Source: an uncultured Prevotellaceae bacterium
GTDB taxonomy: Bacteria > Bacteroidota > Bacteroidia > Bacteroidales > Bacteroidaceae
Assembly: GCA_902785945.1 (NCBI GenBank)
Contig: CADAAR010000027.1
Coordinates: forward strand, 1 to 51,466
Direction: 5' to 3'
Length of the DNA: 51,466 bases
The position numbers and the translations under genes are program-made. Below the pieces are notes generated by a model. That model was not told the DNA's origin. It was given only the letters and a program-made list of their open reading frames with translations, and did no database searches. This document shows positions 31,872 through 33,085 of the stretch, piece by piece. Position 1 is the stretch's first letter, and each line of letters begins with the position of its first letter.

Positions 31872-31920
31872 CGGATAAGTTTCGGAATATGGAAACTTTT
31901 AAGCGATTTTTTACTCCAAA

Positions 31921-31977
31921 TTAATAAATAATGATTATTTCTCTCGATTTAAAACACTTACTTTTTTCTTTCTTCAT
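31921..31977 (-). CDS. Possible 18-residue small protein upstream of higB
   Basis: MKKEKSKCFKSREIIIIY followed by TAA, about 35 bases downstream of a consensus promoter at 32016-32046. No homologue recognised. It may instead be only the leader of a longer higBA transcript. Confidence 0.25.
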   Translation of the reverse strand: MKKEKSKCFKSREIIIIY

Positions 31978-32015
31978 ACGAATTGGGTTTAAGTTTAACA
32001 TAAAATTATCGCTTG

Positions 32016-32046
32016 CAAAGATAGTCATTTTGGCTTATATAACAAA
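32016..32046 (-). promoter_or_regulatory. Consensus promoter upstream of higBA, minus strand
   Basis: TTTG, 19 bases, TATCTTTG. It is about 175 bases before the toxin ATG and could drive a second transcript through the small frame at 31921-31977. Confidence 0.65.
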
Positions 32047-32073
32047 ACTTTTCATAGTTTTTCTCATATTTTC

Positions 32074-32104
32074 TTGCAATTTTTGAGTTTTTTCCCTATA
32101 TTTG
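32074..32104 (+). promoter_or_regulatory. Consensus promoter of the structured RNA region
   Basis: TTGC at 32074-32077, 19 bases, TATATTTG at 32097-32104. No plausible protein-coding frame follows on this strand. Confidence 0.7.
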
Positions 32105-32109
32105 CAAAC

Positions 32110-32386
32110 GTAATATATGGTCTAACCCTCAAAACAGAATCGCGTATGGTAACATAGCAACAACATAAGGACATAAGATGCGCTCGACCTCTGGTCGCTT
32201 TGCTCGCAAAGAACGTCCACTTTTGATTCTTGTTTCGGAAATTCGCCAAAATTTCAAAATCATCAAGAACTGAAGTAGATGGTTCGCGCCGTTCGGCGTG
32301 GGCTTTTACTCGTTTAAGATGATTAGGTGTTTGGCGATACCTCCGAAACGTAAGCGAAGTAATCGCACAGAAGGGACAGTCCCTTT
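32110..32386 (+). ncRNA. Candidate structured non-coding RNA
   Basis: About 275 bases follow the promoter at 32074-32104 with no open frame on the same strand. Visible pairing: CGACC/GGTCG and CTTTG/GCAAAG hairpins near 32195-32220; CGCC/GGCG hairpin near 32287-32300; a long-range stem TTTCGG...CGCCAAA (32233-32250) with TTTGGCG...CCGAAA (32330-32348), and AATCATC with GATGATT nested inside it. It ends in AAGGGACAGTCCCTTTTGTG, a hairpin with a short T run that could terminate it and that also belongs to the REP family. The minus-strand frame over it (111 codons) I take as a shadow. Confidence 0.42.
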
Positions 32387-32511
32387 TGTGATACTGCAAT
32401 TATCAGAATTGCCGCTATAATAAATAGGGGTACGTAACTTTCCAGGTCATTGGTAATGAATTGTTCGAATCCTTGAGAGATTCCTTTTCCAATTGTTTGA
32501 AAGAAATCCAT
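32323..32511 (-). CDS. Small membrane protein of 62 residues
   Basis: MDFFQTIGKGISQGFEQFIT begins an amphipathic stretch, followed by the hydrophobic segment PLFIIAAILIIAVS (about residues 28-41). The C-terminal part from about residue 42 (QKGLSLLCDYFAYV...) is encoded by the AAGGGACAGTCCCTT palindrome and the end of the RNA region on the other strand, so the original end of the protein has probably been replaced. A full consensus promoter precedes it with a leader of about 40 bases. Size and layout recall holin- or smalltalk-like small proteins, but I do not recognise it. Confidence 0.55.
   Translation of the reverse strand: MDFFQTIGKGISQGFEQFITNDLESYVPLFIIAAILIIAVSQKGLSLLCDYFAYVSEVSPNT
32371..32385. 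repeat. REP-like palindrome AAGGGACAGTCCCTT
   Basis: Perfect stem of seven bases around one unpaired A, extended by CACA and TGTG. It lies within the small membrane protein gene and at the end of the candidate RNA. Confidence 0.65.
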
Positions 32512-32554
32512 ATTGGGTTTTGTCGTTTAATTAGGATTGATAGAAATCTTGTGG

Positions 32555-32585
32555 CAAAGGTAGGTACATTTTTCTAAACATCCAA
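32555..32585 (-). promoter_or_regulatory. Promoter of the 62-residue membrane protein
   Basis: TTGG, 19 bases, TACCTTTG on the minus strand; back-to-back with the promoter at 32602-32632. Confidence 0.75.
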
Positions 32586-32601
32586 ATAATTCTAGGAAAA
32601 C

Positions 32602-32632
32602 TTGGTGGTTTCAGAAAAAATGTATATCTTTG
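32602..32632 (+). promoter_or_regulatory. Promoter of the two small secreted protein genes
   Basis: TTGG at 32602-32605, 19 bases, TATCTTTG at 32625-32632. Confidence 0.75.
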
Positions 32633-32689
32633 CAAACAATAAAATCGGAGCTAAAACATCTTACTCTTATGACAAAGAAACTGTTTTTG

Positions 32690-33085
32690 ATGAAGAAATT
32701 GTATCTAACGATCCTTATGCTGGCAATGCTTTTTCTGCCAATACAGATGCGAGCAGAAGGAGTAGCAATCAAGGTGGAGTTCAGTGGCACATCAATGACC
32801 ATTGAGCTGAGTCAGCAACCAAAGATTGTTTCCGAGGATGGGAAGCTTGTGATAAAGACAAACTCAATGTCTGTAGCCCTTACCCTTCCTTGCAAGGTAA
32901 CTCCCATCGGCGGCTCGAATACAGCCATTGACAAGGTTGTTATCCGAAACAACGATGATAATGCGCCCATCAATGTGTATTCGTTGGATGGGAAGAAGGT
33001 TGGCACTTTAAAGGACAAAAATGAGGTGCTATCCCTAGAGAGAGGTGTTTATATTATTAATGGTAAGAAGATTTTCATTAAGTGA
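32690..33085 (+). CDS. Small secreted protein with T9SS-like C-terminal domain
   Basis: About 131 residues. The signal peptide MKKLYLTILMLAMLFLPIQM precedes a small beta-rich region. The last 40 residues (INVYSLDGKKVGTLKDK...GVYIINGKKIFIK) look like the type A sorting domain used by the type IX secretion system. An ATG seven codons upstream (32669) is also possible; starts further up would lie inside the promoter. It is 8 bases before the next gene and probably co-transcribed with it. Confidence 0.65.
   Translation: MKKLYLTILMLAMLFLPIQMRAEGVAIKVEFSGTSMTIELSQQPKIVSEDGKLVIKTNSMSVALTLPCKVTPIGGSNTAIDKVVIRNNDDNAPINVYSLDGKKVGTLKDKNEVLSLERGVYIINGKKIFIK

Follow-up and report, generated by a model that had tools for sequence, protein, structure and literature searches.

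A multi-copy leader RNA family of Bacteroidota with a minimal upstream reading frame, and its possible role as a translation-sensing attenuator

Bacteroidota dominate the gut and rumen, and to our knowledge few classes of regulatory RNA are known in this phylum. One locus in the window analysed here (the whole stretch of 51,466 nucleotides of DNA, from an uncultured Prevotellaceae bacterium) raises the question of what might be produced from a segment that follows a promoter-like sequence and holds no long sense reading frame. The original prediction was of a structured RNA with its own consensus promoter. The promoter-like sequence, TTGC-N19-TATATTTG, is indeed an exact match at positions 32074-32104 of the + strand, in a form that we take to be the Bacteroidota promoter. 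The segment that follows, 32105-32366 (+), is one copy of a multi-copy structured RNA family, referred to below as the leader RNA family. That this family exists, and that it sits in cis, can be stated with high confidence.

Structure and distribution of the family

The stretch 32105-32395 (+) folds at -94.7 kcal/mol, compared to -68.7 +/- 4.7 kcal/mol for shuffled sequences (z -5.58, with none of 200 shuffles as good), and the minus strand of the same stretch gives a fold z of -3.35. A covariance model, R1, built from 31 copies with the window copy excluded, matches positions 32207-32392 (+) with 163.1 bits (E 3.9e-30 in the organism's own genome). The long-range stem and further nested pairing of the original prediction are all present. 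A basal stem (32232-32238 with 32343-32349, helices 1 and 2) covaries both inside and outside the genus, and encloses the long-range stem (32243-32249 with 32331-32337, helix 3), in which 99.3% of cells are paired and 7 of 7 pairs are double-changed. The nested stem (32259-32264 with 32318-32323, helix 4) is paired in 96.6% of cells and double-changed in 6 of 6 pairs, and the conserved apical hairpin at 32282-32303 (stem 32282-32290 with 32295-32303, helix 8) is paired in 97.3%. On either side of the 3' strand of the long-range stem lie GGU (32326-32328) and ACC (32339-32341), segments whose GGY/RCC complementarity holds in 97.0% of cells, with double changes in 2 of 3 pairs; all of these features are on the + strand.

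The covariation of these stems among homologues, which had been proposed as a check on the prediction, is extensive. Inside the genus, compensatory double changes occur in 20 of 42 predicted pairs, and one stem position is filled by CGCCAAA/UUUGGCG, CGGCAAA/UUUGCCG and GGGGAA/UAUCCCC types in different copies. Outside the genus, double changes are found in 38 of 42 pairs, based on an alignment (A3) of 47 rows, 45 of them distinct and one an opposite-strand match of locus L095. In this alignment 94.0% of cells pair, as opposed to 69.5 +/- 0.7% when shuffled and 35-44% when slid by 1-3 columns, and 438 cells are double-changed, as opposed to 117 +/- 10 in shuffles; the alignment was fitted to the covariance model, which favours the structure, yet both the shuffled and the slid controls fall far from the observed values. 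In three copies (L019, L027 and L031) the inner stems are identical and the outer stems and flanks differ, as if the elements recombine with or convert each other.

An antisense protein gene was considered and rejected. Conservation of the minus-strand frame in homologues had been named as evidence that would speak against an RNA; of 24 copies compared (window included), 6 have no stop in the frame that the window keeps open, which favours RNA, and the lengths of the 24 copies are spread over all residues modulo 3 (10, 10 and 4). A minus-strand ORF of 62 aa, MDFFQTIGKGISQGFEQ..., at 32323-32511, contains a hydrophobic stretch and overlaps the 3' end of the element; it has no Pfam match.

The family is widely distributed. 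The organism's own genome carries two more full copies at 75% identity, on contigs C14 and C40, and a fourth, weak match to R1 of 39.9 bits. DNA matches were found in 82 of 150 genomes of the genus (own genome included), many over the core at 32211-32362 and some covering only dispersed repeats inside the query. Matches to R1 were found in 18 of 40 relatives, in at least 89 of 295 genomes drawn from the order (at least 64 of 184 genera), in at least 26 of 247 genomes of a class-wide draw (21 of them from other orders) and in at least 12 of 198 genomes of a phylum-wide draw (2 of them from another class). These draws overlap, with the own genome in each, and in those larger than 40 genomes stricter filters were applied and few candidates were scored per genome, so the prevalences are lower bounds. 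The loci from related species are not independent of one another. Related gut and rumen bacteria are among the carriers; those with names, from which the phylum name Bacteroidota is taken, include Prevotella ruminicola KHT3, Prevotella disiens, Hoylesella buccalis and a Rikenellaceae MAG. The highest copy number was 20 R1 matches in a single genome (G165). Eight of these 20 begin no further than about 410 bases into a contig (C597, C338, C54, C497, C485, C632, C199 and C182), so that the copy number is probably an underestimate and the element may break assembly.

The family corresponds to no known one in Rfam 15, where no match reached the gathering cut-off over the element in the window, at 10 loci of the genus or at 20 further loci; a permissive search of window positions 31900-32600 returned three weak matches of 14-18 bits, with cut-offs of 50-55. 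A search of the literature, as far as the accessible texts extend, turned up no description of it. Candidates for an overlap are the palindromic Bacteroidetes elements of PMC8040213 (HMP2_4205, HMP2_1032 and others), which have predicted terminators and lie near TPR and TonB genes; going by their description, these might coincide in part with the leader RNA family. None of four Bacteroidota terms is present in PMC8632094.

Position in front of genes

At related loci the element mostly stands directly before a gene. The named (genus-type) set consists of 80 loci, L110-L189, among the matches listed. An ORF on the same strand, 80 aa or longer, begins within 80 nt of the model end at 67 of 79 named loci and within 250 nt at 74 of 79, with a median distance of 40 nt (among the matches listed); for the order-level loci the corresponding values are 28 of 41, 36 of 41 and 47 nt. 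One of the 80 named and three of the 44 order-level loci were dropped because the 3' side was too short. In the opposite direction, an ORF lies no more than 250 nt away at 19 of 74 named loci (among the matches listed) and 7 of 37 order-level loci. A conserved structure just 5' of a same-strand gene, the mark of a cis-acting leader, is therefore a property of the family and not of the window copy. The original prediction stands with respect to the fold, the promoter-like box and the absence of a match in Rfam, but a stand-alone RNA is not what the related loci suggest, where the element is mostly a gene leader and, outside the genus, has a pairing partner beyond its U-run.

Many of the genes that follow appear to encode surface proteins. 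According to an uncalibrated heuristic of our own, the first gene is signal-peptide-like at 59 of 74 named loci (among the matches listed) and at 26 of 36 loci of the order set. With ORFs of at least 150 aa in the named set, the only set from which a background rate was taken, 51 of 63 first genes are signal-peptide-like compared to 82 of 308 other ORFs at the same loci (among the matches listed). A secreted product is not apparent for some of the first genes, and second genes too are frequently signal-peptide-like (17 of 38 in the named set, among the matches listed, and 13 of 17 in the order set, no lower than first genes), so that the bias towards surface proteins may be a feature of the neighbourhood. 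A Pfam scan took 20 of 35 downstream and 20 of 42 upstream ORFs, from 45 of the 80 named loci among the matches listed. Among the loci listed, the 20 first genes included six with LRR_5, two with dockerin, one with BACON and Ig-like domains and nine with no family. Both of the other full copies in the own genome, on C14 and C40, precede BspA-type LRR_5 genes (E 1.9e-118 and 7.6e-76). In wider relatives, genes with Kelch, beta-helix and YCF48-like domains lie close downstream, and a TonB plug protein begins some 220 nt after the element at two loci. At three loci of another order (L237, L238 and L244) the element lies some 190-220 nt 5' of similar genes and the leader holds two TAnnTTTG boxes; the TonB plug is a Pfam assignment in L237 and L238, and the gene start in L244 is similar by eye only. 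Given such strong covariation, its wide occurrence and its place mostly before genes of adhesin-like, lipoprotein and receptor-like type, the leader RNA would amount to a common cell-surface switch.

The genes on the other side of the element are also of interest. The gene just upstream is of a toxin-antitoxin type (HEPN, HepT-like, YafQ, PIN or nucleotidyltransferase) at 13 of 20 chosen genus loci among the matches listed, a count that is not an unbiased rate because the upstream ORFs were picked mainly as same-strand and close. These genes are on the same strand and end 49-195 nt before the model start (e.g. L139:6925-7329, L163:2963-3352, L173:2109-2402 and L121:4784-5185). In the window, HTH_3 and Gp49-type genes lie upstream on the other strand, a pair that is presumably HigBA-like. 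Some of the toxin-antitoxin families in question cleave RNA, and their presence next to the element in the genus offers a concrete hypothesis on what might be sensed.

The mini-ORF, the promoter box and the 3' end

A comparison of leaders side by side brought out a minimal reading frame upstream of the structure, consisting of an AUG, zero to two codons and a stop. In the window this mini-ORF is ATG GTA ACA TAG (Met-Val-Thr-stop) at 32146-32157 (+), and so the description of the locus as having no frame is right for long sense frames but overlooks this one. A mini-ORF occurs in 79 of 81 genus-type leaders, a count that takes in the own copies (among the matches listed; 2 of 83 leaders were dropped because the upstream sequence was too short) as opposed to a fraction of 0.32 in dinucleotide shuffles, and in 27 of 44 order-level leaders, with 17 lacking it, as opposed to 0.29 in shuffles. 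Its 40 distinct sequences include M-G-stop, M-V-T-stop, M-D-R-stop, M-T-stop and M-stop; the shortness is conserved more than the codons, arguing against a nascent-peptide signal. The frame of the AUG was also controlled, using distinct sequences only with identical 18-mers collapsed. Starting from the 3'-most AUG, a stop within two codons is found in frame in 64 of 69 genus sequences compared to 8 and 14 of 69 in the other frames (among the matches listed), and in 26 of 30 sequences of the order set compared to 4 and 3 of 30. The contrast is smaller for the 5'-most AUG, at 32 of 69 versus 19 and 20 in the genus (among the matches listed) and 18 of 30 versus 6 and 4 in the order. A conserved short ORF 5' of a structure, as expected of an attenuator controlled by a uORF, is thus observed, less strongly so when the 5'-most AUG is used.

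A promoter-like box commonly precedes the element. The motif TAnnTTTG lies 20-100 nt before the core at 40 of 60 loci outside the genus, compared to 5 of 59 and 3 of 59 in the next two 80-nt stretches. Among the matches listed, it lies 20-130 nt before the core at 39 of 78 genus-type loci, compared to 6 of 77 further up, and about half of the genus-type loci are without it.

At the other end, most copies outside the genus finish in ACGC or ACGU followed by a T-rich run. An upstream AAGCGU can close on this end, and this basal closure pairs in 84.6% of cells with weak covariation. The letters just 5' of the U-run stem complement letters that lie past the U-run (for example UUAGUCCA/UGGACUAA, CGGAGUCCAC/GUGGACUCCG and CAAACCCA/UGGGUUUG). 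The score for this pairing was 14.66, compared to 12.73 +/- 0.32 and a maximum of 13.64 in 200 re-pairings, among 60 loci of which 59 are outside the genus and one (L230) is inside; one further locus (L231) was dropped because no U-run was recognised, and four rows in which the U-run finder was misplaced (L234, L240, L245 and L075) were kept. A covarying partner past the U-run ties the structure to the downstream message outside the genus. Inside the genus, where 75 of 80 loci were used and 5 dropped (among the matches listed), no alternative pairing was convincing in the permutation test, which leaves a switch there without support from covariation. Among these 75 loci, again among the matches listed, the scores were 9.53 versus 9.33 +/- 0.16 re-paired for the spacer with the 5' core, 10.31 versus 10.18 +/- 0.19 for the spacer with the U-run segment, 7.99 versus 8.08 +/- 0.17 for the 5' core with the U-run segment, and 11.31 versus 10.77 +/- 0.24 (maximum 11.61) for the U-run segment with the downstream segment. 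Two other pairings were tried and set aside: the local hairpin ACGUAGAC...GUCCACGU as a universal end, which pairs well in the genus and at only 61-72% outside it (helices 9 and 10), and, in place of the basal stem, the local hairpin AAGC-GUUA-GCUU, which is paired in 69.3% of cells with little covariation.

Taken together, the position, the mini-ORF, the U-run and the promoter box fit an attenuator that reads the translation of a minimal ORF. The leader RNA family is probably, though by no means certainly, a translation-sensing cis attenuator, chiefly of surface-protein genes: its structure, its position and its mini-ORF are features of the sequences as they stand, and switching is the use to which they would be put. 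Attenuation by the sensing of translation is proposed with moderate confidence, and the details of the switch that follow with low confidence. The parts follow one another in the order promoter box, A-rich stretch, mini-ORF, a large hairpin that is bent, built of covarying stems and conserved at its apex, a stem closing on the T-rich run and then, mostly at a distance of no more than 80 nt, the start codon. In copies from outside the genus, the segment before the U-run can pair with one that lies close to the start codon. A ribosome on the mini-ORF would bias the folding of the nascent leader between two forms. In one, the basal stem would be closed on the U-run, transcription would stop and the gene would be off; in the other, the basal stem would not be closed on the U-run and the gene would be on, with its start codon accessible. 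The mini-ORF seems too short to be read in the exit tunnel, and so may instead report initiation, termination or stalling. It also makes the hypothesis cheap to test, through a single AUG. A broader reading is advanced more tentatively, as a serious possibility that falls short of an expectation: an undescribed, phylum-wide class of leaders in which a mini-ORF of two to four codons would report the state of ribosome initiation or termination (e.g. under the action of a drug or toxin) and set the surface proteome, with one copy per gene, giving a regulon with no dedicated protein regulator.

The nearest analogue found in print is the leader of tetQ-rteA-rteB from CTnDOT, a translational attenuator from Bacteroides. 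It is described as an attenuator of tetQ translation (PMC5418344) with a uORF of only four codons (Wang et al. 2005, as cited in PMC12121999). The tetQ leader serves one resistance operon, whereas the leader RNA family has many copies, diverse genes and a 150-nt covarying hairpin. On this comparison by description, it is plausible that the family works like the tetQ leader, and no membership in a common class is claimed. Another system, the uORF toiL of topAI-yjhQP in E. coli, is a sensor of stalled ribosomes, those stalled by tetracycline at its own start codon among them, but belongs to another phylum and acts by Rho-dependent termination and occlusion of the start site rather than at a U-run (PMC12121999). 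The B. thetaiotaomicron transcriptome is reported to include long 5' UTRs whose short ORFs recall leader peptides (PMC7366714).

Alternative explanations and the state of the window copy

The conserved apex and the many conserved unpaired positions across copies raise the alternative of a ligand-binding riboswitch or a protein-binding leader, whose conserved loops would bind and control the U-run terminator, with the mini-ORF secondary. The multi-copy distribution, with 20 matches in one genome, would also suit such an RNA. However, no shared pathway was found among the downstream proteins scanned, and the conservation of the mini-ORF would need another explanation; a riboswitch is accordingly judged unlikely.

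A stand-alone, trans-acting sRNA would end at the U-run and leave the neighbouring gene to its own promoter. The short distance from the model end to the start codon, a median of 40-47 nt (among the matches listed for the named set), would leave little room for that second promoter, and the covarying partner past the U-run outside the genus is likewise unexpected. An independent sRNA is thus quite improbable, even though it would account for the U-run end and for the promoter box, which roughly half to two thirds of the loci possess, and multi-copy sRNA families do exist in Bacteroides. FopS and GibS of Bacteroides thetaiotaomicron are described as multi-copy paralogues with sigma-ABfr promoters (PMC11697453); FopS, by that description, has a single-stranded 5' seed and one terminator hairpin, whereas the leader RNA family has a long multi-stem hairpin, and a FopS-like sRNA was set aside because of this difference in architecture.

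A DNA recombination site between gene cassettes, folded like an integron attC site, is very improbable: the imperfect palindrome with covarying arms, the opposite-strand matches of some copies and the toxin-antitoxin type gene often just upstream in the genus (13 of 20 chosen ORFs, among the matches listed) would suit it, but the mini-ORF, promoter box and U-run are strand-specific, the window copy has no match in phage or plasmid collections, and the integron integrase TIGR02249 was above cut-off in 0 of 8 genomes, with weaker recombinase matches in 8 of 8 genomes and 14 of 14 controls.

The preferred reading, a translation-sensing attenuator, applies to the family, and the copy in the window departs from it. 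This copy is best seen as an orphan: its core is intact, two repeats interrupt it and no sense gene is close. No sense ORF (at least 80 aa, starting with ATG) begins within 250 nt of it; the next one (ATG 32669) is preceded by a TATCTTTG of its own at 32625-32632 and has a start that is signal-peptide-like by eye. The first repeat, of about 31 nt, lies between the mini-ORF and the core of the leader at 32180-32211 (+) and is missing from both paralogues in the own genome. The second is the hairpin AAGGGACAGTCCCTT at 32371-32385 (+), which occupies the place of the relatives' ACGY and T-rich run. It had been identified as a repeat-family hairpin serving as the end of the RNA; it does belong to a dispersed repeat, since 23 of the 36 matches in the own genome (E up to 1) are confined to this segment, but its role as the proper end is not confirmed. 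Other copies finish in ACGY and a T-rich run without it, so the 3' end of the window copy appears to have been replaced. A terminator scan of 32000-32700 found none; the program is limited to loops of 3-8, and the usual end of the family would escape it as well.

With repeats interrupting it and no close sense gene, the window copy may be a relic or may make only a short RNA. The chance that this one copy is a decayed relic with no present function is about even, and such decay would be compatible with the explanation preferred for the family. The two repeat insertions, the altered 3' end and the separate TATCTTTG of the next ORF point towards decay, whereas the intact core stems and the exact promoter box point away from it.

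Both repeats have a life of their own outside the element. Four 19-base matches to the AAGGGACAGTCCCTT repeat lie no more than 85 bases into contigs C6, C14, C43 and C56, which suggests that this repeat breaks assembly. The repeat at 32180-32211, GCGCTCGACCTCTGGTCGC...CTCGCAAAG, recurs alone in the own genome and in related ones, and it also occupies the same place in the leader of several other copies, e.g. L010, L012, L021 and L032.
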